A stretch of 64,000 nucleotides of DNA. Origin: Anaeramoeba flamelloides (lineage: Eukaryota; Metamonada; Anaeramoebidae). The stretch is taken from contig JANTQA010000032.1 in assembly GCA_027625915.1 (NCBI GenBank), positions 14,400,001-14,464,000 on the forward strand. Reading direction: 5' to 3'. The notes beneath the pieces were generated by a model, which was not told where the DNA came from, searched no databases, and saw nothing but the letters and a program-made list of their open reading frames with translations. Shown one piece after another: positions 511 to 53,857 of the stretch (its first letter is position 1; each line of letters starts with the position of its first letter). The translations under genes and the position numbers were made by a program.

Positions 511-3143
511 TTAAAATCCAAATCAAAATTATTAACAAAAATATTATTTAGAACTACCGAAATAAAGAAAGGAACTCTATTTATTTATTTCCCTTGATTT
601 TTTTTCTAAGCTCGGGGTTATGAATTACTACTCATTTATATTGTTTTATTTATTAGTTTTATTTTTAATGTTTTGATAATTTTACTTTTTTTTTACATTT
701 TACATAAATCATACCTCTTAACTGAGGCAAAAATAGACCAAGTAAGAATTTCGATATATAAAATAAGATTTAAACTCAAAAAAAAAGTAGAAATTCTTAG
801 TTTTGGACCTATATCAAAAAATTTAAAATTTTCAAAAAAAGTCAACTAAAATATTAATTGGAAAGTAGAAAATTTACAATTACTAGATGCGAATCTTAAT
901 CAATTTAGAGAAAACTTAATAATCAATAAACTCCCTTTCGCTCTAAGGTTACCAACCAAAAAATAAAAAATTCAATTTTTTTTATGAATTAAACAAATTA
1001 CAATTGTTTAGAAATAAGAGAAACAATAAAGTTGGGATTAGAGTTGATCTTCATCTTAGAAATACCTGAAGAAACTAAAAATTTCAAAAAAAAATGTTAA
1101 AAAAAATTTTGAACGACTTTTTCATTGGAATGTCTACTACAAAATTTCTAAATTTCTTTGGAAGAGTAAAAATGTTGATAATAAGATTTTTTAATTGTAA
1201 ATGGATGAATTTTTAAAGGAATTCCATAGATCTTCAATTTTCTTAATGTTAATTTGAAGTTTGAAATATTTGTATTTTTCAAATTAACTTTTTAAAAAAA
1301 ATAAAAAAAAAGCAAGAAAAGAAGAAAACAAAAAAACTAGAAAAAATCAAAAAACATAAAAATTTACAAAATGAGAAAAAATAATCAGATTAAAAATTGA
1401 AAATTTGGTTTGAGAATAATAATGAATTAAAATCATAGAATATATATATTTCTTCAATAAAATCGGTTTCCTTGGACTGAAAAGGAGTTTAGTTCTGGAT
1501 GGAAAGGTCAAGAATATTTAAAAGTTATTTAGTATATTAACAATATAAATAAACAGTTGTGTCATCAAATATGGCAGAGTAGCGCATAGTGCCCTTGTTT
1601 TTCAGAATTCAAAAAAACCTAAAAAAAACATTGAATTTATACTATTCTTTTTAATTCTGAAATGGCTAAATAGTTTATTTTTTTAATTTGAGAAACAAAA
1701 GAAAATCTCAAAAATTTTCTTTTTAGTTCTCAAATTAAAAAAAAAACCTAGATACTCTACGATACGTGAAAGCATTCTATGAACACTTTTAATAATTATC
1801 AAAATGAATTTTATTTCTGTATTTCAGTTTTATTAGAAGAGTACAACATTTTCAAAAATATTAGTTATTAAACATTAAAGAAAATACCTCCAAGTTGAAT
1901 TAAACTAAAATCCATTCTTCACTTTATTTGGGATTTTTTACCCGAAAAAAACACACCTTTTTTTCTTGAATAGAGATTTTTAAAATAGGTGCTTATACTT
2001 TTAACAGTATGTAAAACAAATTCAAGATTTTTTCAGGTCTGAAATACTGATTTTATAGCGAATAAACTTTATTATTAACGATGAAAGGTTTATGAAAGTA
2101 GTAATTTTGTCCAAACTAAATTTTTAATTTTATTTTTTGATTTTAGTGATTCCAATTAGTTAAAGTAGTGTTTTTCTCATAATTCTATATCAGTTTAATA
2201 AGATAACTGGAGAAATGATAAGCTTTCGAATTATTGAAAAATAGATTATTTTGGTCATTGAATTACAATTAAATTAATTATTTTGGTAAGATTATTATTG
2301 ATTTCAAAATAATATTTGCCCATACTTCATAATTGATAGTTTTTATCCAAAAATGGTTATTTATTGTTAAAAAAGAAAATTCACACTTTTTTTTTTTATT
2401 TTTTATTTTTTATTTTTTTTTTTTTTTTTTTTGGGGGGGGGTAAAGATGATTTGATTTAAATTAAGAGATATTGAAACTTATCTTAGTAAAAAAAAATTA
2501 TGAAAATATTGATAAATATAAAATTAAACTTTTCAGTAATAACATACATTTTTTTCCTTAAAATTAACAAAAAAAAAACCAAAAAGTTAAAGAACGAATC
2601 CTCATATAAAAAATAAAATGAATTTTTTGTTATTTTAAAAATTACAAAATTATCAAAAATTAAATTCAAAATTGTACTTTAAAAAAACAGACAAAATTTA
2701 ATGATCCAAATAATTGTTTATTCTTATTTTTATCACAAATCATCACTCGACCTTTGTCTGGTTATTATTATTTCTGTAAACTATATTATTTAAACTACAA
2801 AATTTATTAAATTTTGAGAATAAAAATTTTATATAATTTCAAATTTTGTTTTGAAAAAAGAAAAAAAAATAAATAAATTCCTTAGAATAATAAATAAATA
2901 TAATTTTTTTTATTTTTCTTTTTTAATTTCGTTTTTTTTTTTTTAAAAAAAAGAACTTTTAAATATTGGATAAAGGGAAAGATTGGATATCTTTTATTTG
3001 TTTGATATTTATTGATAAGAATTATTAACGAAAATGTTCTGCACGTTTTGTCTGAGTACCACTTTATCAGTTACTAACAAAAAACAGATATAATCCAAAA
3101 TATCAAAAAACCTGTATTAATTTGTTGAAAAATATCTTTATTA
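511..3143. other. Gene-free AT-rich spacer with a degenerate hairpin repeat
   Basis: No gene is recognised. At 1598-1665 and 1673-1752 lie decayed copies of the two hairpin modules described at 32.5-33.3 kb. The following 1800-2190 is related to 20036-20335 (shared stretches around AGTTGAATT and TTTTTTACCC), so hairpins plus this downstream block form one old dispersed repeat of about 600 bp seen twice in the window. A homopolymer T run that switches to a G run lies at about 2415-2443. Confidence 0.5.
1598..2190 (+). repeat. Old dispersed repeat (hairpins plus downstream block), copy 1
   Basis: It pairs with 19830-20335. Both copies start with a palindrome built on CAGAATTC...GAATTCTG, run through a poly-A/poly-T hairpin and continue into a shared AT-rich block of about 300 bp. 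Divergence is high and there are many small gaps, so the ends are approximate. No coding capacity is visible. Confidence 0.5.
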
Positions 3144-3845
3144 AACCATTTTCCATTCAAAGGTGCCCAGTTTTCATTGGTGAATTACATGTGTTTAAAG
3201 GATTTGCATAGATATTAATAGAAAAATTTTTTTTAAAAATTCCAAAATTAAAATCATAATTTTTTCACATTTACGTTTCTTTTGATTTTTCGATTTTCTT
3301 TTGAAAAGTAATTCAGTTGCAAAATTTTTTTATACCAAGATCAATAGTCACTTAGTAAAAATTTGTTATTCTAGGGTTATTTAAACTGTGGAAATGATTG
3401 TTGAGAAATCATATTGATTTCTATTGGAATTTTATTCAATCTTGATCCAACTGAAATTTGTTTAATAAATGTGAAAATTTTTCACTATATTTACATTTTC
3501 TTTTTCCAATAGAAAACACAAATACTACAAACTATGTTTGGGAACTTGGTTTCTAAAAGAAAAGTATGAAAAATGAAGTGTAAATTGTATCATATTTATT
3601 ATTCAAATACCATTAAAAGATCAAAACGAACATTTCTTGTTTTTCTCAAATGATTACACTCAGAATTTAAGTTTTGAAATTTTTAAGAAAATTTATGGAT
3701 TAATTATATTTCTTTCAGAGGACTACCAACTATTCTTTAATGGCCATTATTCTGCTTTTATCTTATTTATTCTTCAAAGGTCAATTATATAAAATAATTG
3801 ATATTTAAAAAAAATGTTATGCTAAGATTTGACAGAAACAAAGTT
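3144..3845. mobile_element. Non-autonomous TA-target TIR element, 702 bp, older copy
   Basis: This is a full-length relative of the element at 55044-55743, similar in length and along its whole sequence. The ends can still be read as inverted repeats (AACCATTTTCCATTCAAAGG on the left; the right end matches in reverse) and TA flanks both sides (3142-3143 and 3846-3847). There is no open frame of note, so it must have relied on a transposase from elsewhere. Many more differences between its two ends than in the 55-kb copy suggest it is older. The TA target and TIR shape fit the Tc1/mariner group, which is inference. Confidence 0.75.
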
Positions 3846-4268: not shown

Positions 4269-7200
4269 TTAATTCTCTTCTTCGTTTGATGAGGATTTAT
4301 CATCGTCATCATCGTCATCATCATCTTCAAAATCATCATCTTCAAATAAATCGTCTGTTTCATCATCCTTTTTAACTCTTTTCAATGTTTCGTTTTCATC
4401 GTCGAATTGTTCAAGGTCGATAATTACTGTATCTTCGTCTGTCTCATCAAATGAATCATTATAAATACTCATATAGGTGTTATCTTGTATGGGCCTAAAA
4501 CGATATCCAACATACAGGTAAAAAAAAAATGTGACTAATTCATCAAAAATTGAATCGATGTATAAAACTTTAAAGGATAAAAATCTTGGGATTATCATAA
4601 CAAATAATCTCGTTGTGTAAATATAGACAAAGGTAACAATATAAAATTCTTTGAATATTTTTAATCTTTCAACATTCTTTGCCATTTTGCCATCAACGGA
4701 TGCAGTGGATTGTAAATGACTAATTGTGTAAATAATTGGGAAAATGATACAACAAACGCAAACAAGATCAAAGAATTTTAAAATATCCCACCATTGTAAA
4801 TATCCTTTTGTTCCTGAAAGGGTTTCGTCGAGCACAATGATCGCAATGTTACTAATGATTTGTGCTGGGATAATAAAAATAAAAATTTTCTTATCTCTTT
4901 CATTTAGTGTATTTTTAATAAATGACCACCCAGTGCCAACAAGTAAAATAACTACAAATAATAAAACCCCTTTAAAACTATTTCATATATATATATATAT
5001 ATATAATAAAGAAGATAAGAAAAATCAATAAATTGAAAATAAAATTAGAAAAAAGCAAATTTAAGTTTAAAAGAATTAACTATTTTCAGAAATTGTAAAT
5101 CAATCTGAAGATCAAGATTTAAATCACAATTTTAATTATTGGTTGGAATTTAAATATAAATATATAATAAAGTGAACAGCGCAATCAAAAATTACAAGTG
5201 TTAGTCACGAATTAGTAATCTACAAAATAAGTGCCTCTTTGGATGTAGAAGTAAGTTTTATTTTTTTAAACATTAAAAAAAATTAGTTATGAAGAAAATG
5301 ATTGTTTTTTTTTTTTTTTCAATTTTTTGGAATTATTAATTTGCTATTTTTTACATTGTTTTCGCCACTCATAATGTAAATATAATTCTACAATAAATCT
5401 TTTTTTTAAAAATCATTTATTTTTAATTAATCTTTTTTTTTAATTAAAAATAAAATGTTTTGGGAAAAAGGAATAAAAAAAAATTGGAAGAAGAAACCAA
5501 ATTTATTGGTAAATGTATATTCGTGAATAGTGTTTTAAGTAGGTGGTAAAAAAAAAAAAAGTTGATTTATTAACTTTTCTAAAAGATCCAATTCAAAAGA
5601 AGGAAAAAGAAAAGCAGCGAAGGAAAAAGTAATTGGAATCGAAAAAAAGGAAAAAGAAATGAAGAAAACTCAGGAAAAAGAAAAAAAAATGAAGAAAACT
5701 CAGGAAAAAGGAAAAGAAAGGGAAAAGTAAAAATAAAAAGGAAAAAAAAAAAAAATCCCTTAAATAAAGAAAAATAATTTTATTTGTATTGCTTTGTTTT
5801 GTTTTGTTTCTTATAAGCTAAATTTCAAAAATAGGGTCATCATTAGTATTTTCTAAATTATTGGTATATGTGTTGCGTTAACCAAATATTCTGAACCCAA
5901 TATCATTTAAAAGTTATTATTGAATATTTAATATCAAGAAACAATCTTCTTTTAATGAAAATTTCCCAAAAGTTGAATTCATTTTTTTGCAATTTTTCTT
6001 TCAAAATGATTCCATATTGTTATTTTTATGTTGAATGAACAAGAACATTTTTGAAAACCGTTAATATTCAAGAGATGAGATTAATTAACATTGGAGAAAG
6101 GGGTTGTAAAATTCAAAGAAAGTAAAACACCCAAGAAGTGTTTGCTTCGAAAACAAGTATCAACCAAATTTGCTTTTAATGGGTTACAATGGTTCCTTGA
6201 AAAGTGAAGAAATAGCGAGATCAAATAAGATCTTCTTTTCTCTTTCATTTGGAGACAATGTGATGAATGTGATCGTATTCATTTTTATCTTTTTTGTACA
6301 TTCAAAAAAATTGGTTTTGTTTTTCTTTTTCTTTTTTTTTCTTTTTCTTTCTTTTGTTGAGATTCTTTTTATCTTGAAAAAGGTATCAAGGAAAGTTTGG
6401 GTTGATACCAAATGGGTAAATAGTAAAAATCTGATAACTCTGATGGAAAGTTGTTTCAAAAGGTTCTTGGAAGCAATGGTGAATCTTAAATGGATAATTT
6501 TAAGATGAAAAATCATTTCAAAAATAGGGTCAAATTTATTTTTTTTCTTTATGGGTTTCTTTTCTCTATTCTTTTATTAGAAATAATAATTAAAACAGAA
6601 AAGGGTGTTTTAGACAGTTATTTTTAAGTTTTAAGTTATGATTTTTCTGGGTTGAGTTTTGGTATTCACTAAATGAGTAACTACAATTTTTTTTCAATCA
6701 AAAATTTGCCCCTATTTTTGAAATTAAGCTTAGTTCATAACAAATCGACTGAATACTGTAAATTGTATCTTCCCGATTGTTAGTATAGCATCCATCATAA
6801 TTAAAGCACGCGCAATTAAAAATCTTAGTTATTTTAATTAGAATATATTGCATGTCATTGGAATCTTAAAGTCTCAAGCACGCTCTTAACATAGATTCCA
6901 ATGTCCTTAGATATTCTTATTAAAATAACTAAGATTTCCAATCGATTTATACAAAATTATTTCGGATATCCACTACCTTTCGGGATTATAAGAACCGTTA
7001 TATTTCGGAATTAAAAATGTTTTAGAGCTATTTTTTTTTTTTTCATCTAAAATTACTCCAAAACAAAGAAATAACAGCAATCATAAAAATTACAGAAATT
7101 ACAAAAATTACAAAAGTTAAAATGAAATAACCCCCTTTTTTTAAAAAACAAGTAAATTTATATTTTCAAATAATAAGGTAATTAAATATTAATGAAAAAT

Positions 7201-10200
7201 AATTTTTCGTTTACATTATGAAATTTGAATTAGCATTCTTTCTCAAAAAGATTGTATAGTCATTTTCAAAAGGTGAAAACAAAAAACTTTTCCATAATCG
7301 GCATCAAGAATATATCTATTTAAGCTGTTCAGCCTTTTTATGGGTTGCTTTTTAAAAAGTTTTGGTTTTTATTTTTTGAATATAGACTCTAACAAGAATG
7401 GGGTTTTTTGGAATCATGGAATAAAAGATTTCAAAAATCTTGACCTTTGATTTCATTTTGTAAACCAAATTTGAAGAGAGAAACATATTTTTTTAGAATT
7501 TAAGAATACATAATTGGGGTAAAAATATTTTTTTCATCTATATTTTATGGTGCCTATTTTGAATTAAAAACAAACCAGTATGTGATTTTATGATAGATTT
7601 CTCTAAAAATCAACAATTAAAATGAAGGACATTTTGTTAAAAAAAGTGCCAAAGAGCAAAACTTAATGCCAAGTTTTAATTCATATTACTTGAAATAATG
7701 AATTCAGGGGCAAGTTTTGTGGTGCATTTTAATTTATTACTTTTTGAGTTAATAGATTTTGTTCATTTATTATCATTTTTCATATGAGTTATTTTTTCAG
7801 AAAGAAATCTAACAAAACCATTACTTTGTTCAATATAACTAGGGTTATTGTTAAATCACAAATTGAATTAAATTGGGATTAATCATTTTTGTACTGAAAG
7901 AAAGCAGTTTGTTCCAAATATTTGAAATTAATGTAAGTGAAAATATAAAACTAGAAAAAGATTCATTTTCTTTTTTTTTTAATTTTAGAAACTTTGAAAT
8001 TTGAAATTGTATTTTTTGGATTTTTTTTTATTAATTGGCTTTTTTGCCTTTGAGATCTTGGAATTTTATTTTTTTATTAATTGAATTTTTAACCATGAAT
8101 GTTTGAATTTTTCTAATGAGATCCAATTAAAACATTTTTATTTAGATTTTTTTTTTTGGGATTCTTTGAATCTCTTTTTTGTTAAATTTTATTTTTTGTA
8201 ATTGAGATCCTATGAATTTTTTTTTTGATCAATTGAGATGTGTTATTTTTTTTGTTTGAATTTTTGTCTTTGAGATCTTGTGAAACTTTTTGGTTTAATA
8301 TTTTGTTTTTTTGGGATTCTTTGAATCTCTTTTTTGTTAGCCATTGTGAAAAAAATTTGGGCCATTTAAAAAAAATTAGGTCAGTCAAAAATTTGTTTTG
8401 GTTTTTGAAATAGCAAATATTGGCAAAATGATTTTTGATTAAGGTATCATTTTATGAACAAATCTTACATTCAAGAAAAACCAAAGTCACTCTCAATTAT
8501 AATTTTCCAGAAAACAATATTATTTCGTTGCATTTCGACCCTTTCGAATTGCATTGGGACGCTAAAAGAACAAAAATTGAATTTTAATTGTAAACTTTAC
8601 TAAAAAATAAGATAACTATTTATGGACAAATATTAAAATCTATTTATTCAATGAGATATTTATCCTTGTTAGATAACGTGAATTTATCAAGGTTAATCTT
8701 AAATATCCTTTTAAACCAAATTGAACCAAATAATCTTCCAAAAAAGATAATTTTTCAAAGGAGGATTGATTTTCATTAATGTTTTACAATCAAAACTTCA
8801 AAATAACGAAATATTAGGATTTTAGAAACCATTTAAATTCTAAAAATCCTCATAGAACAAATCTTAATTTAAAACAATTATTCCTTTTTGGTCTTCCCAA
8901 ACAATCACTAACTTGATCTTGGAATGTAATCTAATAAAAAAAAATGTACGTTTTTAGTAAAGTTTACAATTAAAATTCAATTTTTGTTCTTTTAGCGTCC
9001 CAATGCAATTCGAAAGGGTCGAAATGCAACGAAATAATATTGTTTTCTGGAAAATTATAATTGAGAGTGACTTTGGTTTTTCTTGAATATAAGATTTGTT
9101 CATAAAATGATACCTTAATCAAAAATCATTTTGCCAATATTTGCTATTTCAAAAACCAAAACAAATTTTTGACTTAACCCAATTTTTTTTAATGACCCAA
9201 ATTTTTTTCACAATGGTAAATTGTATTTTTTGTAATTGAGATCCTATGAATTTTTTTTTTTTGATAATCGAATTTTTGTAATTGAGATCTTTGAAGCTTT
9301 TTTTTGTTAATGGAATTATTCAACAAAAAGAAGTTTACTTTTCAAATTATCATTTTTTGAGGAAGACACACCTCTAGTATGAATAAAATTCACAGTACGT
9401 CCCTTACCATTAAATGTGGTTTGTTTGTATTTTCTCAATCAAATCCATTCGTTCTAAAAATTTTTCACAGTAGCATTTCTGTTTTATTTAATTTCCTTTT
9501 TTATTTGATATATTGAATACTATTATTTTCCAATTAAAAAATGAAAATATTTTGTTCACATCCTAAAATATTTTTCTAGTTTTATAGTTCAAAGTAAAAC
9601 CAAATATCTTTATAACATCGTTTCGTAATGATATTTTTTAGAAAATAAATTAAACTTCCTTTGTTAACTCTAAGACAAAATTTTTACTCTTCTAAATTGA
9701 ATGTAACAGTATTAATTAATATTCATTTTGGAAATTGAAATAAAAATTTTCATTTATTAATTGGAAAATAACAGTAGTAAAAAAGTGAATTTAATTTTCC
9801 TTTTGAATCGTAATTATTGCATGGTTTATGAATATTTCATTGGAACTTGTTATTTTTTTTAATCATTTGGTTTCTCAATAATTTAAGATCATTCAAAAGT
9901 ATTTCAAAGAGTCTACACAACCTACGCGATCGACATGATCTTTAAATTTTGAATTGAAGTGCGTTTTAAAATGAGTTAAAAGGGATTATTAGGAAGGAGA
10001 TGGAAAAGAAAAAATTACCAAATTATTTTGAAATTACCATCAATTTATACTTTAAGGAAATTTCATTCACATTTTTTAAAGGTTAATCAAAAAGAACGAA
10101 CTTCAAAACGAGTAATCGAACTTCCAAACGAGTAAAGGACTAAATAAATAAATGAAGAAAATGAAATATTGGTCAAATAAAAAAAAAAAGAAAGAGTCTT

Positions 10201-14879: not shown

Positions 14880-16700
14880 ATGTCTAATTCTCGAAAAAGA
14901 AATAATTCTAAAAAAGAAAAAAATAAGAACAAAGGAGCAACAAACCAACAAAATCAACAACAATCTAAAAAAAGAAGAACAAACAAAAATCAAAACAATC
15001 TCAAAAACCAAAATAACAACAAAAACAATCAAATAAACAAAAACCAAAACAATCCCACAAACAAAAATAATAAAACAAAACAAAACAATAAAGACAATAA
15101 CAATATTAAAAACCAAAATGTAAATACAAACAAAAATAATAAAACAAAACAAAACAATAAAAAAAACCAAAAAAAAAACAAAAACAATAATCCAAAACAA
15201 AATCAACAAAAAAATCAAAACAAAAAGAAAAAGAAAAAGAAAAACAAAACCAAAACCAAAACGCAAAGCGAAAAAGAAATAACATTTAAACAAATGCCCA
15301 TTATTTCCCAAATACAGTTTTCACTAGAAAAGCAAGGGTTTGTGAAGCCGACCGAAATCCAAAGAAGATCGATCCCACCATTTCTCGATGGCAAGGACAT
15401 TTTAGGGAATGCCAAGACAGGATCGGGCAAAACGTTAGCCTTTATGATCCCCTGTGCGCAGCTGCTTCACAAAGGCAAATTTCAACCGAGAAACGGTGTT
15501 GGCTGTTTAATCATTGCGCCCACAAGAGAATTGGTTTTACAAATTATGAAAGTTGCCGAGTACATCATGGCAAACCAGCCCCAAACGTTTGGGCACGTGA
15601 TCGGTGGTACAGACAAGTCCGAAGAGGCACGCAAATTACGCAACGGCATCAACTTATTAGTTGCCACGCCAGGGCGTTTACTTGATCATTTACAAAACAC
15701 GAGAGGCTTTGTGATCCGAAATTTGCAGTGTTTTGTGATTGACGAGGCCGATCGTGTTTTAGAGAATGGCTTTGAGGAGGAGTTGACGCAAATTGTGAAG
15801 TACTTGCCAAAAAAACGGCAAACAGTGCTCTTCTCTGCAACACAAACAAGGAGAATCAAGGACTTGGCAAAGCTGTCGTTTAAAGAAAAGCCCATGTACA
15901 TCGGTGTACACGACGATCAAAGTGAGGCAACGGTTGAAACCCTGGAACAGGGGTATGTGATCTGCCCGCAGGACAAGAAATTTTTAATTCTATTCACATT
16001 CTTAAGGAGGAACCATAACAAAAAAGTCATTGTCTTTTTCAGCTCTGTAAATTCGGTCAAATACCACCACGAGCTATTAAAATATCTGGACGTTGATGCA
16101 ATGTTTTTACATGGGAAGCAAAAGCAAAAGGTCAGAACAAATACCTTTAATAACTTTGTCCAAGCGACAGAGGGGATTTTATTATGTACAAACATTGCGG
16201 CGCGTGGCTTGGATATCCCTGAAATTGATTGGATCATACAAGTGGACCCCCCACAAAAGCCCCGCGAATACATTCACCGTGTTGGTAGAACTGCTCGCGC
16301 TGGGAAATGCGGGAAGGCAATTATACTTATTTTACAACCTGAAGTCGATTTTTTGAAATATTTAAGATTAGCAAAAATTCCATTAAACGAATACGAAATC
16401 CCAGAATCAAAAATTGTAAATATACAACGTCAATTGGAAGCAATGATCGAGAAAAATTATAGCCTTAAAGCGTTAGCAATAGACGCCTTTAGATCATTTT
16501 TTAATGCATATGATTCTCATTTTTTAAAGGAAATTTTTGATATAAATAAATTACATAAAGAAAAAATTGCAAGATCTTTTGGATTAACGTCAACACCACA
16601 AATACATTTCACATCAAATATCAAGAAAAAGAAAAGCACTTTACACAACTTTGACCAGATAAAAAACAAATTTAAGAAAAATATAAATATGAAAAAATAA
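14880..16700 (+). CDS. DDX18: DEAD-box RNA helicase DDX18/Has1 (60S ribosome biogenesis)
   Basis: One uninterrupted exon encodes 606 residues. Residues 1-130 are an N/K/Q-rich basic leader with an internal duplication (two NKNNKTKQNNK blocks). The helicase core follows: Q motif GFVKPTEIQ (153-161), Walker A AKTGSGKT (178-185), PTREL (214-218), DEAD (288-291), SAT (319-321), ARGLD (441-445) and HRVGRTAR (466-473). Features specific to the DDX18/Has1 branch are NGINLLVATPGRLLDHLQNT, DEADRVL...GFEEEL, EQGYVICP and KYHHELL, and after the core FNAYDSHFLKEIF, a DUF4217 signature. The family is nucleolar and acts in large-subunit pre-rRNA processing. The conserved core (about 15330-16330) is much richer in G and C than the leader and tail, as expected for a highly expressed gene under codon selection. 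ATG at 14880 is the first in frame. Confidence 0.97.
   Translation: MSNSRKRNNSKKEKNKNKGATNQQNQQQSKKRRTNKNQNNLKNQNNNKNNQINKNQNNPTNKNNKTKQNNKDNNNIKNQNVNTNKNNKTKQNNKKNQKKNKNNNPKQNQQKNQNKKKKKKKNKTKTKTQSEKEITFKQMPIISQIQFSLEKQGFVKPTEIQRRSIPPFLDGKDILGNAKTGSGKTLAFMIPCAQLLHKGKFQPRNGVGCLIIAPTRELVLQIMKVAEYIMANQPQTFGHVIGGTDKSEEARKLRNGINLLVATPGRLLDHLQNTRGFVIRNLQCFVIDEADRVLENGFEEELTQIVKYLPKKRQTVLFSATQTRRIKDLAKLSFKEKPMYIGVHDDQSEATVETLEQGYVICPQDKKFLILFTFLRRNHNKKVIVFFSSVNSVKYHHELLKYLDVDAMFLHGKQKQKVRTNTFNNFVQATEGILLCTNIAARGLDIPEIDWIIQVDPPQKPREYIHRVGRTARAGKCGKAIILILQPEVDFLKYLRLAKIPLNEYEIPESKIVNIQRQLEAMIEKNYSLKALAIDAFRSFFNAYDSHFLKEIFDINKLHKEKIARSFGLTSTPQIHFTSNIKKKKSTLHNFDQIKNKFKKNINMKK
15061..15161 (+). repeat. 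Direct repeat in the DDX18 leader
   Basis: A block of about 35 bp (AAACAAAAATAATAAAACAA and onward) occurs at 15061 and again at 15127, 66 bp apart and in frame. It encodes NKNNKTKQNNK twice and marks slippage or unequal exchange expanding the low-complexity leader. Confidence 0.75.
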
Positions 16701-18321
16701 ACGAAAAGAAAAAAAGATAAAGAAACATTATCAAAGATTTGTTTATTTGAAAAGTTTTTTAATAAATATAAATTTAACTGTATATTAAATAGAAAAATAT
16801 AATATAGTAAAAAGTTTTTGATTTTTATAATAACATTTTTTATCTTTTCAAAAATAAAATCCAAAAATTTTGAAAAATTTCAGACGAAATTCAAAATATG
16901 TTTTGGTACGTGAAATGATTGTGAATCGTTAAAAGTGTTATAAAAATACATTGAGTACTCTAGGATGCAAGGTTTTGCTCTAAATTTAGAGGAGTAGGTA
17001 AAAGTATAAGATTTGATGCCACAAAATATTAGTGAATTTTTTTTTTTGATTTGTGCATTTGTGGTGCAATTTTAGAAGAATTTTTTTTTTTTTGAACTGA
17101 TCTCAAATATTTTCTTAGGAGAATATTTTGAGCAATTTTTTCTTTTTTTTAATAATATCCTTACACTATTCTTTTATTTTTTATGTTTACTCAAATGTTG
17201 TTTGTATTAATAAAAACAAAAATGAATAAAAATAAATACAAAACCTAAAAATCTTAAAATCAAATAAAACAAATAAAATCATTTCAAATTGTTTTTGTGA
17301 TTCAATATTTGTATAAAATAAAAAAGTTTTGGTTTACGACACAAAGTCCAGGAAAGTGTTCACTAATTAGTGAGTTTTTTTATATTTATTTGAGCTCTAT
17401 TGGTAGATTTTAATTTTTTTCAATTTTTTTTGTCTTTTAGTACAGTTTTTTTTTTGAATCTAAAGAAAAGTCAATTTTTATTTTTTTTTTTTTGATTATT
17501 AACTTTCTTTTCTTTTGAAATAGAAGATGATTTGATAATTGGACTTATTTTCTTAAACTCATTTGTGTTGACCAATTTTATTCTTCTTTTTGTCATTAAT
17601 TAAAAAAAAGTAAATCAGATATAAAACATAAAACAGAATATACATATTTAATGATTGGATCTCATAAAAGCAATAATATACTTTCAGAATAACACAAAAA
17701 TCCCATGACTTCAAAATATTAATAACAGAAATAGAATTTTTGAAAATTTCAGATTAAGTTGTGTATCAGAAACAAAATTTTTCCATAAAAATTGATAGTT
17801 TGTTAAATGGTATATTTGAAAAAACTTCTAAGAATACAATTCGAACACCCAATTCTAGCTTTATGAGAAAATGAAAAGCAACTAATGTTTCTTATTAATA
17901 TGTTTGGAACTAATCTCAATATAAATTTAAATATATTTTTTTTTTTTTACATTTTATTAATTAATTTTATTAATTTATCTTTGTTTGACATTATAATGGA
18001 GTTAAATATTGAGATCTTTCAATGGATTTTTTCTCTTTATTTGTTTTTATTTTTTTCGGAAAAAAATTGATAAAGAAATTTTCCAAAAAAGTGAAAATAA
18101 AAAAAATGTAAAACTCCGGAGTTTTTACTTATATACTGACACAGCATGATCCTGAAAAAAATTTTCAAAAAAACAAAATATTATTTGCTAATTTTTTACT
18201 TTTTAATAACTTCACTTATAATAAACACTATTGGTTAATTAAAGATCTTGGATCAAAGATTATTTTTTGAAATATTTTATAATTTAAGTTGATAAATCCA
18301 ATTTTCCAGTTTCACTTAATA
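16701..18321. other. Gene-free AT-rich spacer
   Basis: DDX18 ends at 16700 and AATAAA-like tracts follow within about 100 bp (near 16760 and 16855). Beyond this I see only homopolymer-rich DNA and short chance frames. Confidence 0.5.
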
Positions 18322-19589
18322 GAGGTTTTGATGATAACATGCTATAATTCACGATAAAGTTACAAAAATCGCGAAAATTTCCATCAAATCGCGATATATC
18401 TTAAAATCGCGATAATTCAATATTATCGTGATAATATAACAAATCGCGATATTCTATAAAATCGCGATAATTATTATAAAATCGTGATAAATGCCAAAAT
18501 ATCGCGATTACTTTTGAATCGCGATATAATAGTTGATGGGTTTTTGGGCTAATTGAGAAATATTTTGAATAAAAAATTTTTTTTCATCAAAAAATAGATT
18601 AGGTGACAAAAAGTCATTCTTTGAAAAAACAACAAAAAAGATACTTGATCCAATCAAGGATCAGATCAAAGAGTTTTGTTGTGTTTTCATTTTATTTGGT
18701 TGACAAACCGATCGATCCTTTTAGATCAACAACAATAAGAACTAAAGAGAAATAAATATTTTTTCAGTTAATGGTGGTGCTGGAAATTGCTTTGAATAAT
18801 TAGTTTCTAAAACAACCAACCCTTAATCTGTTCTTTAAAGAATGTTTTCTTGGGTTACAATATTTTCATTTTTTCTCAGAAAGCTAAAAGGAGTTGGATA
18901 ACTCTTCAAAAGATTTCACAACATCCTTGCAAGATGATCACCAATTATTCAGATTTTTTATACAATTCTTGTCTTCTTCTTCTTTTTCTACTCATATCTT
19001 TGTATTGGACAGAAAACACAATTAGAATAATAGAGGTTTTTGTTTGATCGATCACCAATAAGAAGTCAAATTATTCTTTATTCTTTTTGGCTATTTAAAA
19101 TTGTGAAGGTAACAACTGCATTTTAAGAAAACACACATAATTTATATTCAAGTATATTGATGAGATGGGTAATTATTAGTTTGATCATAAAATTTGTTTG
19201 AGATTTTATATTTTGTTAAAAAAAAAATGAAAAGAATAAAATTTTTTTCCACAACAAACCAAACTCATTCCCTTTCTAAAAGTTTTCTATCTTTCAAAAC
19301 TTTCAAATACTTGAAGACAGTTCATAACCTTTGCAAACACTTTAGACATTTTTATTAAAGGGGAAAGTGTTGTAAAAATCTCAAGGATTTGTAAAAGTCA
19401 AGAGATTTTTTTTAAAATGAAATGAAAATAATAATTTTTCATTTTTTCGCGATAATGTTAATATCGCGAGAATGTTAAAATCGCGATTTTATGATTTTTC
19501 GCGATAAAGTTGGACTAATCGCGATTTTTTTAATATTATTGCGATTTTATTGTTAATATAATTATAATATATGTTATCATCAAAACCTC
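18322..19589. mobile_element. TIR element with subterminal TCGCGA iteron arrays, 1268 bp
   Basis: The ends are inverted repeats GAGGTTTTGATGATAACAT (the right end is the reverse complement for 19 of 19 bases), flanked by TA (18320-18321 and 19590-19591). Inside the left end, TCGCGA or one-base variants begin at 18349, 18369, 18389, 18407, 18426, 18444, 18462, 18482, 18502 and 18519. Inside the right end they begin at 19447, 19464, 19481, 19499, 19519 and 19539. Spacing is 17-20 bp throughout. The 900-bp centre has no convincing reading frame. Iterated subterminal motifs are transposase binding sites in hAT, Mutator and P elements; here that role is inferred. A decayed relative of the left end lies at 51577-51715. 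Confidence 0.8.
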
Positions 19590-20381
19590 TAATATTTTGT
19601 TCTAATTTAATAGTAAAAAAGTTGAATATATTTTTTTTTCACAGTTAAGGGGTTATAATCTTAAATTTTAAAAATAATATAAATTTAATAAATATCTTTC
19701 AAACGGAAATCAATTATTTTGACTATTATGGAATTATTTATTGATATAAATTGAAAAAAATATTTTGTTTTTTGATTTCTCGGTTAGGTTTTTTTAACTT
19801 TTTATAATGAACAGAAAATTTAAATAAATTTTTAGGTTATTTCAAAAAGTAAAAAAAAAAAAACCAGTGGACTATCTTTAGGTTTTCCAGAATTCAAAGG
19901 CATTGGGTAAAATCATATATATTTAATTCTATTCTTTTGAATTCTGGAAAATCTATGCACTCTACTTACACTCTCAATATTTATCAGCGGTTATTTTTTT
20001 TTTCTTTATTTAAGTTTTTTTAGAAGTGTTAAGTTTTTTCTCAACTATTATTTATTATCTATTCAAAAAAATACCCAAAAGTTGAATTTAAGTAAAATTC
20101 ATTGTGGCATCCAAACAAAAATTTTTTACCCAAAAACAGACCTTTTTTATAAACTAAAGATTTTTGAAAATTCTGGTTATACTGACTACAATAAATATAA
20201 TATCCTCATGAATTTAAAGTTCTGTAATTTTGATTCATTTATAAATAAAGTCTATTATTAGAGATGATAGATTAAGGAACATAATAGTTTTATATAACTT
20301 TTTTTTTTCAATTTTATTTTTTCATACTAGTGAGGTGCTTTAAAAATAAATGTTATCAAAATTTAACCAAAAATAAACCCC
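19590..20381 (+). repeat. Old dispersed repeat (hairpin plus downstream block), copy 2, with spacer
   Basis: A hairpin module at 19882-19955 (TTTTCCAGAATTCAAAGG ... CTTTTGAATTCTGGAAAA) is followed by a block (20036-20335) related to 1800-2190. The first 240 bp are plain AT-rich spacer. Confidence 0.55.
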
Positions 20382-21913: not shown

Positions 21914-23113
21914 TTATTTTTTTGTGGTTCTTTTTTTCTTTCTGGTATGTGCAGAATTAGTTTGTTTTCGAGTATATTTCCTTTTTGTTGTTTTTTTTGT
22001 TGTTTTTGTTTTTGTTTTTGGTTTAGTCTTTGTTTTTGACTTTGACTTTGACTTTGGCTTTGTCTTTCTTTTTCTTTTTGCTTTTGTTTTTGTTTTTGTT
22101 TTTTCTTTCTCTTTCTCTTTCTCTTTTTCGTCATCAACCTCCTCTTTTTTTAAACCCAATTGTATTTTAAGCAAATCACTCCACCTGTTATTTGTATAAT
22201 CCATAATTAAATTATAAGTGAATTGCTTTGCAGAACGTTCGGTAATGCCCTCTTCTAAAATTATTTTATCTTCTTTGCTCCCATACTCAAAAACTTGGAA
22301 GAATTTCAATAAACCTACTTTTTTTTTCTTTTCAGAAATCTTTTTTACTCCACCAGTTAAAACAAATCGATCTTGATCAGCTTTTTCCATTTTAAGAATA
22401 ACATTTGTAATCCTTAAAATTTTTTTCTCAAGCCAAGAAATTACTAATTCTTCATTTAAAATAAAGATTCTTTTTGTTTTATCTTCAATTATCAAATCTT
22501 GATTCTTTTCCTTTTCCTTTTCTTTTTCCTTTTCTGTTTCTTCTCCTTTTTCTTTTTCTTTTTCATTTTCTTTTTCATTTTCAATCTCTTTTTTGTTTGT
22601 ATTTCCTTGATCGATTGCACATAAAAAATGAAGTGATTTCAAAAGATTAATTTTTTTTTCAAGTTTTGGTAAAATATAATGTGAAGCAAGAAACTCTTGG
22701 TAAGAAAACTGTATAGGATCTTTGCTAAATTTTGTACAAAATTTAGTCTCTAAGATTCTTAATACAAGAAAGGTTGGATCAATTTTGGTGGTTACAAATA
22801 AATTGCCGTCCTGTTGCACATAATCAGCAAGAAAAAAAGAACGTGGTGGTCGTGAGTGTTTAAAGATTTCCAGGATTGTTCCGTTTGTTAAGAACACATA
22901 AACGCCTTGTTCACCTGCTTTGTTTTCAAAATTAAACATCATTGATGAGTCCCATTCATTTTTTTGATCTAGATCGTTTAAGAGTAAAAAAAAAAAGCAA
23001 ATTGAGGAAGAAAAAAAATTATTTATTATTTTAAAGATCGTTTGGTGTGAAGAGAGAAAAAAATTCAAATTACAAGCCGAAACAAGAAGAATCTTTTTTT
23101 TTGAAGAAGACAT
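21914..23113 (-). CDS. RNASEH2B: Ribonuclease H2 subunit B, 2 exons
   Basis: Exons are 23113-23074 and 22968-21914, giving 364 residues after removal of a 105-nt intron (donor T|GTAATT, acceptor GATCTAG). Splicing joins KKILLVSA to YQKNEWDSSMMFNF, matching the LVSxY start of the family. The triple-barrel part shows VYVFLTNGTILEIFKHSRPP and IDPTFLVLRILE, the latter being the DPxFLxLxxL hallmark. The helical part shows ISWLEKKILRI, and AKQFTYNLIMDYTNNRWSD before LGL resembles the domain's end. RNase H2 removes ribonucleotides from DNA; subunit B is structural and in many species carries the PCNA contact. An E/K-rich insert (about residues 140-175) and a long KT/KR-repeat basic tail are additions. 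The intron is a multiple of three and has no stop, so retention would still give a readable protein. Confidence 0.9.
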   Translation of the reverse strand: MSSSKKKILLVSACNLNFFLSSHQTIFKIINNFFSSSICFFFLLLNDLDQKNEWDSSMMFNFENKAGEQGVYVFLTNGTILEIFKHSRPPRSFFLADYVQQDGNLFVTTKIDPTFLVLRILETKFCTKFSKDPIQFSYQEFLASHYILPKLEKKINLLKSLHFLCAIDQGNTNKKEIENEKENEKEKEKGEETEKEKEKEKEKNQDLIIEDKTKRIFILNEELVISWLEKKILRITNVILKMEKADQDRFVLTGGVKKISEKKKKVGLLKFFQVFEYGSKEDKIILEEGITERSAKQFTYNLIMDYTNNRWSDLLKIQLGLKKEEVDDEKEKEKEKEKTKTKTKAKRKRKTKPKSKSKSKTKTKPKTKTKTTKKTTKRKYTRKQTNSAHTRKKKRTTKK

Positions 23114-49191: not shown

Positions 49192-52100
49192 ATGTTATCG
49201 TCTCAATACAATTTCGGAACTTCTCTTAAAGAACAAGAAAAATCTTTAATGTCAAAGCCAAGCCAAACAAATAAACAAAATGAAATTTCTACCGAACAAG
49301 AAAGTGTAGATCTTCCACAACCAGAAGAAATGGAATACGAGTTTCTACAAACAGCTCAACAAATCACTGTTACCTTTATTGTTGACAAAGAAACACAAAA
49401 AGAAGATTTAAACATCAAATTAGGTTTACACAGAATTACTGCTGGTGTTAAAAACCAGAAACCAATAATTGAAGGCTCGTTATATGGAAGATTAGAAGTC
49501 CCAAATTGTTCTTGGGAAATTATAAAAGATGAAGAGGGATCGAAAGCTGTTGTGGCGATCATTTTAGAAAAAGCCTTCCAATCCAATTGGGCTCTGGTTG
49601 TTTCAGGCCCTCTTGGTACAAACATTGATCCTCATTCTAATTATTTGCTTCACAAACATTACGAAACAAACCAAAACTATGTAAAGTCAATTAGACTTCT
49701 CACAGCTTCTGCAAAGAAGGGGCATTTCCAAGCAATTACAAAACTTGCTTTAATTTATTCTGGTTCAACAAATTACCCAGTGAAAGTAAATCCAAAACTA
49801 GCTTTTAATTTTTGGAAAATCGCTGCCGATCGAGGAAATGGGTATTCGATGTGGATGTAAAAATCTTTATTTTGCTTTTTTTTTTTTTCGATTTTTTTGA
49901 TAGATTATCGTTTTTAAGATCGTTGGGTCAAATTATCATATTAAGAAACAAAATTCTGATCATATTAATTGGGTGTTGTAATTATCAAAATATCTTTATT
50001 TGAATGAAGCCTGTCTTGTTTTGATTGTACACGAAACAGCCCAGAATTACTTTTCGTTTTCCCTTTCTCATTCAAGATTGTTAACAAATTAGATAGATAT
50101 GGAAAATTGATCTAACCTTAGTGAATACAAAATCTGACAGAAACCAATTACAAACAGACGATAATGAATATAAAACAGGAAATTTTGGATGCTGGTATTT
50201 GAAATTTAAATGAGATAAAATTTCAGCAGAAAGTCATCTTTTCAATTCTGAGAGAAATTCCGGTCATTTGATTTAGGAATATTAGTTTCGCCCATCTACG
50301 TATATGAATAAAATAAAAAAGTCCCAAAAAAATAAACAGAGATTGATTACCCAATTCCAATCTATGACTTGAAAACTCTCAATAATTAAAATAATAATAA
50401 TACAGATTTTTTTAAAAAAATTCCATATTATTCCAAATGAGAAATCGAATTTTCATTTTTTTTCTTATAAAATAAAAATTAAAAAAATTATCTGGGATTA
50501 TTTAGAAAAATTAATAAAATTCAATTAAAAAATAAAGAATAAAATTAACTAGAATTCAGAAGATTTAATTGAACTTAAAAAAAAAAAAAAAATCAATAAG
50601 TACACATTTAACTAATTATTGAATTATAAGATTCTGTGTGTGTACGTTAGGTTTTCCAGAATTTAAAAGAATATAGTTCAAACAAAATTTTTACTCGATT
50701 CTTTTGAATTTTGGAAAAGCTACGTGAGTTTTTTTTTTTAATTTTAGAAATTAAAAGAGACTTTTTCAAATGAAAAAAAATTGAGTAAACAAAAATTTAA
50801 ATAAAAAAAATACTGTTAAGTTTTCCTGAATTTAAAGTGTGGAGAAAAATCTATGATTTTTCTCTATTCTTTTGGATTCTCTAGAACATAGGATACTTCG
50901 TTAGGTTTTCATTGATTTTAAAAGAATTGAGTGACAACATTTGATTTTATTCTTTCTTTCGAATTCTGGAAAAGCGTCATTAGGTATTTTTTTAATTTCA
51001 AAAATTTTCTTTTTATTTCTCAAATTCTAAAAAACCGCTGTTAGCTTTTCTTGAGTTTTCTGCTTATTTGTGAAGTGTTCTAGGTTTTTTTTACTTTTTG
51101 AAATAAACAGAAAATTTTAATAAATTTTTGGTTTATTTCAAAAAATAAAAAAAACCTAACGAAAATCTATTGATTTTGTAAATAAGCAGAAAACTCATAA
51201 AAACCTAACGAAAAAACCTAGAACACTTCACAGATAAAACAGAAAATCTCAAGAAAACTTAGGCACTTGGCAAAATCCACAAAAATATTCCACAATAATA
51301 AAAAACCAAAATATTTTTTAATAAACAATAAACAATAAAGTTAGCAGATACATTTTTTAAAATCCGCAGTAATACTTAAAAAAAAATTTTCCAGGTTCCA
51401 CACTTTTAAAACTATTTTGAATTTTTCATAATTTTCTAAATTACTTATTTGTACAAATAAAGAAAATTACAAAAAAAAACCTTTGTTGACAATATAAAAA
51501 TAAGTTTATTTTTTTTAAAAGGTTTTGGCTTTTTTTGGAAAATTTCTTAAAAGTGGAAAAAAATTAAATTAAGCAATAGAATATTTGGTGATAACATGGT
51601 TAATCACAATAATATTAATATATCGTTACGATAATCTGAAATCTAGATAACCATTATATTATCGCGAAAAAACATAAAATCACAATAATCTATCAAATTC
51701 ATAATAACCAATGAAATTTAAAAAAAGTGAAAAAGTGTTTTTTTTTTTTTTATTTTTAATTGTTGAAGTGTAAATTACACTCTAGATGTCCTTTGACTTA
51801 AAATTTCCTCAAAAGTAATTTAAACGTAAAATCATAGATTTCACGATTGTTCAAGGAAAGGAAAGACCCAAATTTTCTTTATGGTTAAAAAGCAAAAACA
51901 AAAATTGAAAAGAAAAAAGGAAAAAATAAAAGGGAAAAAAAAAAATCCAAAATTAAAAAGGGTTTACAAGAAGCAATTGGTAAAAAATCAAAAAAAAAAA
52001 TCAATTTTATCGTTTAATTAATGACACACAAAATCACAGACACAATACTTTTGGTTGATTTAATAATTTGATAATTGATCATTATTGTTCACTTGGGGAT

Positions 52101-53857
52101 CGTTATTTAATTGCTGTAATTTCTTTTTTTTTTTTTTTTTCTGATTTGCATTAAACCTTTGGTCATTTTTAACCTTTGCTTTTTCTTTTTTTATTTTCAG
52201 GTTATTCATACTTTTATGTTTCAGTGTCTCAGTATTATCAAGTAACCATTTGATCTTTTTACTTTGCAACTCTTCTTCCCAATATAAAGAAGATACGGCC
52301 AGGGTAAAAATGGAAAAAAATCAAGAATTGCGATCATTGCCTAAAAATTTTTCAAATAAAAAATCTTGTAAATTATCCCAAATTGTATCAACTGTTATCT
52401 TGCAATTAAATTTTTATCACGGTACATTCGTATTCATCACGATATACTAGTATTTATCGTAATATTTTTACATTTATCACGATTTTTAGGCAATGATCGC
52501 AATTCTTGATTTTTTTCCATTTTTACCCTGGCCGTATCTTCTTTATATTGGGAAGAAGAGTTGCAAAGTAAAAAGATCAAATGGTTACTTGATAATACTG
52601 AGACACTGAAACATAAAAGTATGAATAACTTTAAAATAAAAATGAAAAAGCAAAGGGTAAAATTATCAAGATGAAACAAACAAATTCAATCAAACAGGAG
52701 AAAGACATCAAATTGAATGAGTTAAAAACTTTCTTATCATCAATTAATTAATTTAAACGTTCTCAAACTAAGAATTATCAGTATAATTAGTCTTGAGTTT
52801 TTACAAGATATTGGTTTATCAAGATTATTTTTTCTTTTTTTTTTTTTTTTTTCATTTTTGAAATTTTTTTTTTGTTACTACAAGTAATAATATAAATTCT
52901 TGAATATGTAAAGAGAATAATTTTTAAACTTTATTTTTTCATAATATTATCTCAAAATAAATATTGATTTCATCATAAACTAATGGGTAATAGTGTTGGA
53001 TATTTTTATACATCGGGTATAGCTGGATTGAAAAATTATAAATTAGCAGTTAAATATTTCAAAAAGGCAATTAAAGTGGGGTTTACCAAGGCCTATTTGA
53101 ATTTAGGTGCATTATATTTTGAAGGTGGGTTCTTGATTGAAAAAGATTATACACTTTCAATGGAATATTTAGAAAAATCTGCTAATTCTGGCGAGCCTCA
53201 AGCCTTAGTGAATATTTGTAAGTTTTAATTTATACTTATATATTTTTATCTTGATATCATAATTTTCTGAAAAAATCCTGTTGTCTAATTTTTTCTTTGA
53301 TATTAAAATTGTAAAAATCTATTTTATTTTGAAATATAATTATTTATATGAATTAATATTTTTGAATTTAATATATATATATATAATTCTATACATTTCT
53401 CTTGTAAACCAATATTAATTTTGAATTTTCATTTTGCTAATTAGCTATTTTATATCTTCTAGGAGCTGGTGTAACGAGAAATTATGATTTAGCAAAACAA
53501 TATATTAATATGGCACGTCGAATGAATCCGCTTGTTAAAGTACCACAACAAATCATCGATATCATAGGAAAAGGGAAGGAAAATTTTGAAAATAATTATT
53601 ATGAAAAAATTGAAATGGATTCATTAAGCAACTTGGATTTAAAATTAACAACCAAGGATGAATTGAAATCCGTTTCTGAATCTGAAATCGAAGAACAAAA
53701 AAATGAAAAAAAAGAAAAAAGGGTAACCAAAGAAAAAAAGAAAACAAATAAAAAAATTTTTTTGGGATGTACATTAGGTTCAATTGCTTTAATTGTAGGT
53801 TTAGGTGTTGGTATTGATTATTACAAAAATAATAAAAATAAAAATAAAGAAAAATAA
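49192..53857 (+). CDS. CS (NudC/p23-like) domain plus Sel1-like repeats plus tail anchor, 3 exons
   Basis: Exons 49192-49856, 52994-53217 and 53445-53857 join to 433 residues; the junctions restore SMWIVGYFYTSG and ALVNISILYLLGAGV, both canonical Sel1 helices. Residues about 48-142 form a CS domain of the NudC type (YEFLQTAQQITVTF, KPIIEGSLYGRLEV, CSWEII, ILEKAFQSNW). Residues about 160-320 form four Sel1-like repeats (SIRLLTASAKKGH, AFNFWKIAADRGN, AVKYFKKAIKVGF, SMEYLEKSANSGE). An E/K-rich linker and a single hydrophobic segment (about 401-420) near the C-terminus predict a tail anchor. CS domains bind Hsp90 or clients and Sel1 repeats scaffold membrane protein quality control, so a membrane-bound co-chaperone is a reasonable guess. 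Intron 1 is 3137 nt and full of mobile DNA; intron 2 is 227 nt. The last exon matches 29-510. Confidence 0.88.
50645..51275. repeat. Hairpin-module cluster 3
   Basis: H1 copies lie at 50651-50722, 50820-50885 (decayed) and 50902-50980. H2-like hairpins lie at about 50728-50815 and 50985-51035. H3 lies at about 51045-51265, with GTTTTCTGCTTATTTGTGAA opposed to TTCACAGATAAAACAGAAAA and a central CCTAACGAAAATC pair. The module order is like that of cluster 2. Confidence 0.7.
51577..51715. mobile_element. Decayed end of a TCGCGA-iteron element
   Basis: AGAATATTTGGTGATAACAT resembles the TIR of 18322-19589 (GAGGTTTTGATGATAACAT), and it is followed by several TCACAAT/TCGTTACGAT/TCGCGA-like motifs. 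Possible matching motifs (TATCACG) occur at 52413-52483, on the other side of the family A insertion. Confidence 0.5.
51740..52300 (-). mobile_element. Repeat family A (LINE 3'-end-like), copy 3
   Basis: Close relative of 42135-42715 in the same orientation, with the same GTGTAAATTACACTCTAGAT end and the short frame KIKWLLDNTETLKHKSMNNL. Its 5' part (52168 onward) is also one arm of the inverted repeat below. Confidence 0.65.
52168..52662. repeat. Near-perfect inverted repeat, arms about 180 bp, spacer 132 bp
   Basis: Arms 52168-52349 and 52482-52662 are reverse complements with only a few differences; at least 100 bp next to the spacer appear identical. The spacer carries TATCACG and TATCGTAA motifs. 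The outer part of the left arm is the start of the family A copy. Because it is in an intron, the host transcript would fold into a long duplex here. Confidence 0.85.

Follow-up and report, generated by a model that had tools for sequence, protein, structure and literature searches.

An abundant non-autonomous DNA transposon with arrays of the palindrome TCGCGA inside both terminal inverted repeats

The element at 18321-19590 of the window (the whole 64-kb stretch of DNA that was analysed) is a non-autonomous, MITE-like cut-and-paste DNA transposon of ca. 1.27 kb, one of about 1,000 copies in the genome, and it carries an array of TCGCGA sites inside each of its terminal inverted repeats (TIRs). 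Judging from the sequence, the arrays most likely serve as binding sites for a transposition protein. The reading that we prefer, with a probability of roughly 0.6, is that of a non-autonomous element with docking-site arrays which would be moved in trans by a probable Pangu/IS5-like transposase. The features of the element are as follows.

18318-18320, no strand: left copy of the target-site duplication, AAT (direct reading; ANT is perfect in 26 of 31 copies).
18321-18340, plus strand: left TIR, AGAGGTTTTGATGATAACAT, 20 bp (direct reading; its 18-base core was counted genome-wide).
18349-18524, no strand: left ('end 2') array of ten units, approximately (W)ATCGCGAT(W), 17-20 bp apart (site positions; conserved A/T positions).
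18525-19446, no strand: interior, non-coding (divergence among copies similar to that of the linkers).
19447-19544, no strand: right ('end 1') array of six units with a spacing of 17-20 bp (site positions).
19571-19590, minus strand: right TIR, a perfect inverted copy of the left TIR (direct reading).
19591-19593, no strand: right copy of the target-site duplication, AAT (direct reading; ANT duplications among 31 copies).

The original prediction had placed a transposon with a 19-bp TIR at 18322-19589. The transposon itself was confirmed by its perfect TIRs, its 3-bp duplication and its family of ca. 1,000 copies, and the TIR was confirmed as well; the limits had to be moved outward by one base on each side, and the two TIRs proved to match each other perfectly over 20 bp. 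No open reading frame in the element exceeds 65 aa. The five matches obtained in an Rfam scan (E 0.06-0.59) were rejected, being all far below the family cut-offs. The presence of TIRs and a target duplication, the high copy number and the lack of coding capacity thus define the element as a non-autonomous DNA transposon or MITE, and its 1.27 kb is long for a MITE. It sits between a DEAD-box helicase gene (14880-16700, plus strand) and a Ydr279-domain gene (21914-23113, minus strand), the latter of which we take to be RNase H2B-like.

The genome searched is AT-rich and eukaryotic and comprises 254 Mb in 76 contigs. With up to two mismatches allowed, the 18-base TIR core had 955 forward and 980 reverse matches, whereas the reversed pattern had 13 and 18; this suggests that the family consists of about a thousand elements, and its share of the genome is estimated at roughly 0.5%. 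The sequence read comprised 30 TIR loci (3 kb each), 19 longer stretches (10 kb each) and a single 4-kb stretch. The aligned copies were 1.19-1.36 kb long, with a median pairwise identity of 84% and 96% for the closest pair; the family has therefore been spreading for a long period, and its activity reaches into the fairly recent past.

Target duplications were evaluated in 31 copies whose TIR pairs lay 0.9-2.6 kb apart with at most six TIR mismatches in all, a set that overlaps, but differs from, the 31 aligned copies used for the divergence work. A perfect 3-bp ANT duplication flanked 26 of the 31 (AAT in 17, ATT in 8 and ACT in 1). A flank match of two bases only was seen in a single copy and read AT, and duplications of 4 to 9 bp were matched in none of the 31 when the TIR was read as AGAGG. 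These results do not support the TA target that had been proposed, and a Tc1/mariner element with a 2-bp TA duplication was ruled out by the ANT duplications. The apparent flanking TA consists of the last T of the duplication and the first A of the TIR; a TA-looking transposon edge can thus conceal a 3-bp ANT duplication. The sequence surrounding the insertions was AT-rich.

The left array contains ten sites (starting at 18349, 18369, 18389, 18407, 18426, 18444, 18462, 18482, 18502 and 18519), seven of which are exact TCGCGA and three of which have one mismatch, and the right array contains six (19447, 19464, 19481, 19499, 19519 and 19539), five exact and one with a single mismatch. The site positions thus agree with the predicted ten and six TCGCGA-like sites spaced 17-20 bp apart inside the TIRs. 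The palindrome had also been called rare elsewhere in the window, and this was found to be so: 12 of the 13 exact copies in the 64 kb lie within the element, while in 200 shuffles of the window under a first-order Markov model the mean was 1.0 and the maximum 4, and no 250 bp ever contained two. The remaining copy, at 51662, belongs to a decayed relative of the ends of the element. The mean spacing is 18.9 bp in one array and 18.4 bp in the other. With 10.5 bp per turn, this corresponds to 1.80 and 1.75 turns, and the phases of the sites therefore scatter round the helix; the idea that they all lie on one face of the DNA does not hold, since successive sites rotate. At both ends, the array spacing can be extended outward to TIR position 9 (18329 on the left), 18-20 bp from the first unit. 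The start of this outermost unit was set by aligning the GATAA of the TIR with the array units, and the unit-like match there, with just 6 of 12 bases alike, is suggestive at best.

Two decayed ends of the same kind lie further along the window.

51578-51744, plus strand: decayed end of the same design, with the TIR-like AGAATATTTGGTGATAACAT after AAT followed by a degraded array that includes the site at 51662 (similarity to family copies).
52343-52504, minus strand: decayed left-type end, inverted (70-72% identity to the copies in L042, L043 and L045).

The former matches both end types: the best match was to the right end of L044 (E 2e-8, 72% over 108 bp), the longest to the right end of L040 (69% over 169 bp), and those to left ends reached 73% over 100 bp (L005 and L023). 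The latter holds four ATCACGAT/ATCGTAAT/ATCGCAAT units exactly 20 bp apart, and the part of this end and its TCGCGA-type array at 52349-52481 lies between the arms of an inverted repeat (52168-52348/52482-52662; 181-nt arms, 94% complementary, 133-nt loop). Two further pieces of sequence were noted. At L032, a 49-bp piece of the left end of the family (3285-3333), inverted and with AAT before it, lies next to the point at which another copy is broken off; it is a rearranged or secondary insertion. The window at 5401-5591 shares a stretch of 192 bp, 74% identical, with L033, where it adjoins a broken copy of the family; this stretch is probably another repeat.

The arrays are tied to the family across the genome. 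TCGCGA-type sites were present in both ends of 28 of the 29 copies tested (L052 and L053 were omitted from this count), the exception, L033_200, being a mispaired fragment; copies with the TIR thus share the spaced palindrome, and the case that would have refuted the original prediction, a TIR without the array, did not arise. Sites within one mismatch of TCGCGA averaged 7.5 and 4.5 per copy at the two ends, as against 0.24 in the interior. A search for three TCGCGA at gaps of 10-15 bp gave 588 genome matches, which overlap and include several per array, and none in the reversed control. Nor did arrays occur apart from the family: among the 50 matches listed of the 588, all 50 matched family ends, 48 of them with at least 88% identity over at least 38 bp and the other two over 27 and 34 bp, and 36 had an exact TIR no more than 1.5 kb away. 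Since 26 of these 50 places lie in copies that belong to the comparison set, the comparison was repeated with each place's own copy left out, again giving 48 of 50; outside the set, 22 of 24 places passed. Two places with triple TCGCGA and without a nearby exact TIR (L052 and L053) were fetched, and both are family copies with mutated TIRs.

The anatomy of the family was then compared with that of known superfamilies. In the available part of the Pangu account (PMC4482050), this IS5-related group of the PHIS superfamily has a 5'-ANT-3' duplication and TIRs of 11-40 bp that usually start with AG or GG, and an AT-rich target preference is described within the superfamily. The present family has the same duplication (26 of 31 copies) and a 20-bp TIR, AGAGGTTTTGATGATAACAT, that starts with AG. 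Whereas Pangu elements are ca. 3.5 kb long and most have two ORFs, the present family is ca. 1.27 kb and non-coding, and it has palindromic-site arrays, of which the accessible text on Pangu makes no mention (PMC4482050). Since an ANT duplication together with AG-starting TIRs is the published signature of that group, the transposase for the family would most likely be Pangu/IS5-like and of the PHIS superfamily, as judged from anatomy alone. PIF/Harbinger elements make a 3-bp TWA duplication, and an assignment to PIF/Harbinger proper was rejected because the duplication here is ANT. PIF/Harbinger elements with Tourist-type MITEs such as mPing resemble the present family in having non-coding derivatives that are moved in trans, and a second, Myb-like protein of Harbinger elements binds the ends together with the transposase; periodic palindrome arrays are absent from the portions of these accounts that were accessible (PMC9921582, PMC9179366).

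A transposase-bearing copy of the family was not found by any of the approaches tried. All 20 stretches at exact-TIR places (C1 and C9; 19 × 10 kb and 1 × 4 kb) hold family sequence, in several cases as a broken or interrupted copy, and when their open frames of at least 120 aa were read by eye, the sole recognised transposase was a DDE_3 frame in L039, outside the family copy. Among the best 40 matches per end (of 1504 and 1909 candidates), 20 pairs lay within 20 kb of each other, all with 1052-1089 bp between starts, which is the spacing of the non-coding element. An exact TIR followed by a base other than the T usual in the family occurred at only 24 places, and among the matches listed, no transposase match lay nearer to these than ca. 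43 kb.

The genome was also scanned with the profiles DDE_3, DDE_Tnp_4, DDE_Tnp_1, ISAZ013, Transposase_21 and Plant_tran. DDE_Tnp_4, the PHIS transposase, gave 26 matches, and DDE_3 gave at least 150 scored matches of 268 candidates. Neither Transposase_21 nor DDE_Tnp_ISAZ013, a transposase type linked to Zator/ISAzo13, gave a match in the genome, the control genomes being likewise silent for both, and the Plant_tran scan was uninformative since its control was silent. In the regions with a complete exact-TIR listing (C1, C9, C11, and C13 to 10.68 Mb; one neighbouring pair of matches counted once), none of 5 PHIS and none of 22 DDE_3 matches had an exact TIR within 6 kb, a check that is blind to partners with mutated TIRs. 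The transposase nearest to an exact TIR was the DDE_3 gene of L039, 6.9 kb off and between other inverted repeats; this DDE_3 fragment (6724-7871) is enclosed by 27-nt inverted repeats that are 93% complementary, with TAAACTCAATTCCAAAAATTGGGACAC as the left arm. At L051, a Tc1-like gene with a 337-aa open DDE_3 frame lies between 34-nt inverted repeats starting with ATATAGTCTACGAC (1752-3058). A PHIS/IS5-like transposase fragment, L055 (G000:C13:11209572-11210015), has four further copies, and the 98-100% likeness among the five is a sign of recent activity. This family also matches DDE_Tnp_1, and all five copies keep a short open frame of 164-172 aa, which may reflect introns. Neither L055 itself nor the following 600 bp contained a TIR-like 20-mer (the best had 8 mismatches) or a TCGCGA. 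The young PHIS family is probably not the partner, since its copy at C13:400752 lies more than 6 kb from an exact TIR. A viral contig with the exact 18-base TIR core was rejected, its TCGCGA-type sites numbering 11 as against 12.6 expected (one mismatch); a single exact match to the core in the viral collection is estimated to be at about chance level.

The abundance of DDE_3 matches raises the possibility that the same element, with the same role for its arrays, is moved by an IS630-Tc1-mariner-type transposase as in the TBE elements of ciliates, which also duplicate ANT (PMC4724952, available in part). We regard such a mover as rather unlikely. TBE elements carry three genes, and the TIRs of Oxytricha TBE are 78-138 bp long, begin with CAAAACCCC and contain telomeric C4A4 repeats, whereas the TIR of the present family is 20 bp, and begins with AGAGGTTTTG...; palindrome arrays are also absent from the TBE accounts in their accessible part (PMC4724952). 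Besides, none of the 22 DDE_3 matches in the completely listed regions lay within 6 kb of an exact TIR, and the DDE_3 gene of L051 is enclosed by a different inverted repeat, with no TCGCGA in the 4.5 kb of surroundings that were read.

Divergence among copies was evaluated to see what is kept in the arrays, using 28 of the 31 aligned copies. L033_200 was left out because of its wrong pairing (60% identity to the majority), and L052_80 and L053_1066 because they had been fetched for their arrays. The majority sequence of the 28 contains 14 exact TCGCGA and three degenerate units, with a common core of about WATCGCGATW, from about -2 to +8 of TCGCGA. Among the 17 units, the 12-bp windows round the site were 78% alike, six of the twelve bases having been used to pick the units, whereas the adjacent 5-bp linkers were 35% alike (chance, 30%). 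Of the bases that played no part in the picking, the A before TCGCGA was present in 12 and the T after it in all of the 14 exact units. With their linkers near the chance level and their core shared, the units are more than recent tandem copies, and the palindrome is the part that is kept. Divergence at A/T positions was 3.5% in the core (offsets -2 to +8), 7.5% in the linkers and 7.6% in the interior; the difference of the core from linkers and interior gave Mann-Whitney p values of 0.011 and 0.0013 (0.012 and 0.0018 with a second alignment strategy), which are optimistic because sites and copies were treated as independent though the copies share ancestry. Core T/A divergence was below that of linker A/T in 25 of the 28 copies. 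Conservation of the TIR is partly ascertained, since the loci were found through it. The conserved A/T round each TCGCGA fit the earlier proposal of many sites for one protein, leaving aside its arrangement on one face.

The CpG bases of the core behaved differently from its A/T flanks and were not conserved: their divergence was 17%, compared with 18% at linker C/G and 14% at those C/G of the interior that lie outside CpG (L033 and L052 were omitted from this comparison). The excess lies in transitions (12.1%, compared with 7.1% in the interior and 8.6% in the linkers at non-CpG C/G), transversions being fewer (4.8% vs 7.1%). In the window outside the element, CpG is depleted (0.69) and TpG and CpA are in slight excess (1.08 and 1.12). 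This pattern, together with the depletion in the window, fits deamination acting on otherwise constrained sites; alternatively, it could reflect a lack of constraint on the CpG bases.

The two CpGs in each site, with their elevated transitions and with dinucleotide values in the window that fit some CpG deamination, would also suit an array under host control, in which TCGCGA is read by a host protein or a CpG methyltransferase that silences the element, and the sites persist since silenced copies are less harmful. This reading appears distinctly unlikely: the conserved bases are the A/T flanks rather than the CpGs, at either end the array lies next to the TIR, and none of the 50 matches listed lies outside the family. 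As a matter of argument, moreover, selection on the transposon should not maintain purely repressive sites. Although tandem repeats grow and shrink easily and the number of recognisable left sites does vary (at least six in 24 of 29 copies and 0-5 in the other five, a count in which mutation and unit loss are not told apart), a functionless neutral expansion carried by the transposon is very improbable, because under neutral duplication the linkers would have been kept as well as the core, whereas they are nearly unrelated between units that have the core in common, and divergence at A/T positions is half as high in the core as in the linkers.

For the preferred reading, a non-autonomous element with docking-site arrays, the following sequence of events can be proposed. 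A DNA-binding protein supplied in trans and encoded by an element, either the transposase or a second partner protein, would bind the TIRs and fill the left and right sites cooperatively. The bound arrays would build two unequal nucleoprotein ends that mark the DNA of the element against the AT-rich background, and pairing of these ends would let the transposase, supplied in trans, make its cuts beside the AGAGG ends and place the element at ANT. In this way of working, the family seems to be much like transposons already known. As there are CpGs inside every site, cytosine methylation could, speculatively, switch binding off.

Unequal arrays of protein sites at transposon ends are a feature of Tn7. 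In Tn7-type ends, differing numbers of TnsB sites are arrayed inward from each end, much as in the present family, and Tn7 differs in being bacterial, with 22-bp sites and a 5-bp duplication. Such arrays inside TIRs are also already known from CACTA elements (Spm/En, Tgmt*), where the subterminal repeats of Spm/En are recognised by TNPA, a second element protein, and act as cis-determinants of excision (PMC2613891, in the part available). Such repeats consist of a GC-rich and an AT-rich portion, and their binding may be impeded by methylation (PMC2613891, same part); when it occupies several internal sites, TnpA is believed to draw the TIRs towards each other (PMC9921582, likewise partial). 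The present family shares with these elements a short motif that is arrayed subterminally, in unequal numbers at the two ends, the GC-rich motif part with an AT-rich side, the short TIR and the 3-bp duplication. In contrast to CACTA elements, however, the TIR here begins with AGAGG instead of CACTA, the motif is an 8-bp palindrome and the target is specifically ANT. The layout thus resembles CACTA arrays, and the family is not CACTA. In target and TIR, the family is closest to Pangu, and in the design of its ends to CACTA.

In a search confined to open-access papers, no published description of this family and no TCGCGA in a transposon or TIR context were found. The accounts of elements with an ANT target mention no such arrays in their available parts (Pangu, PMC4482050; TBE, PMC4724952). 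It is conceivable, though on balance doubtful, that an IS5/Pangu-type lineage independently acquired CACTA-like ends, in which CpG-containing palindromes, tiled at 17-20 bp from the TIR inward, would be read by an element-encoded protein that winds round the helix instead of keeping to one face, and whose binding methylation could switch off. If this is true, the recognition of ends through unequal arrays of sites had a separate origin in a transposase superfamily that is unrelated. With about 1,000 natural copies, varied arrays, visible constraint and a simple palindrome, the family makes a convenient test system, and it is suited to asking how the number of sites, their spacing and the decay of their CpGs affect transposition.
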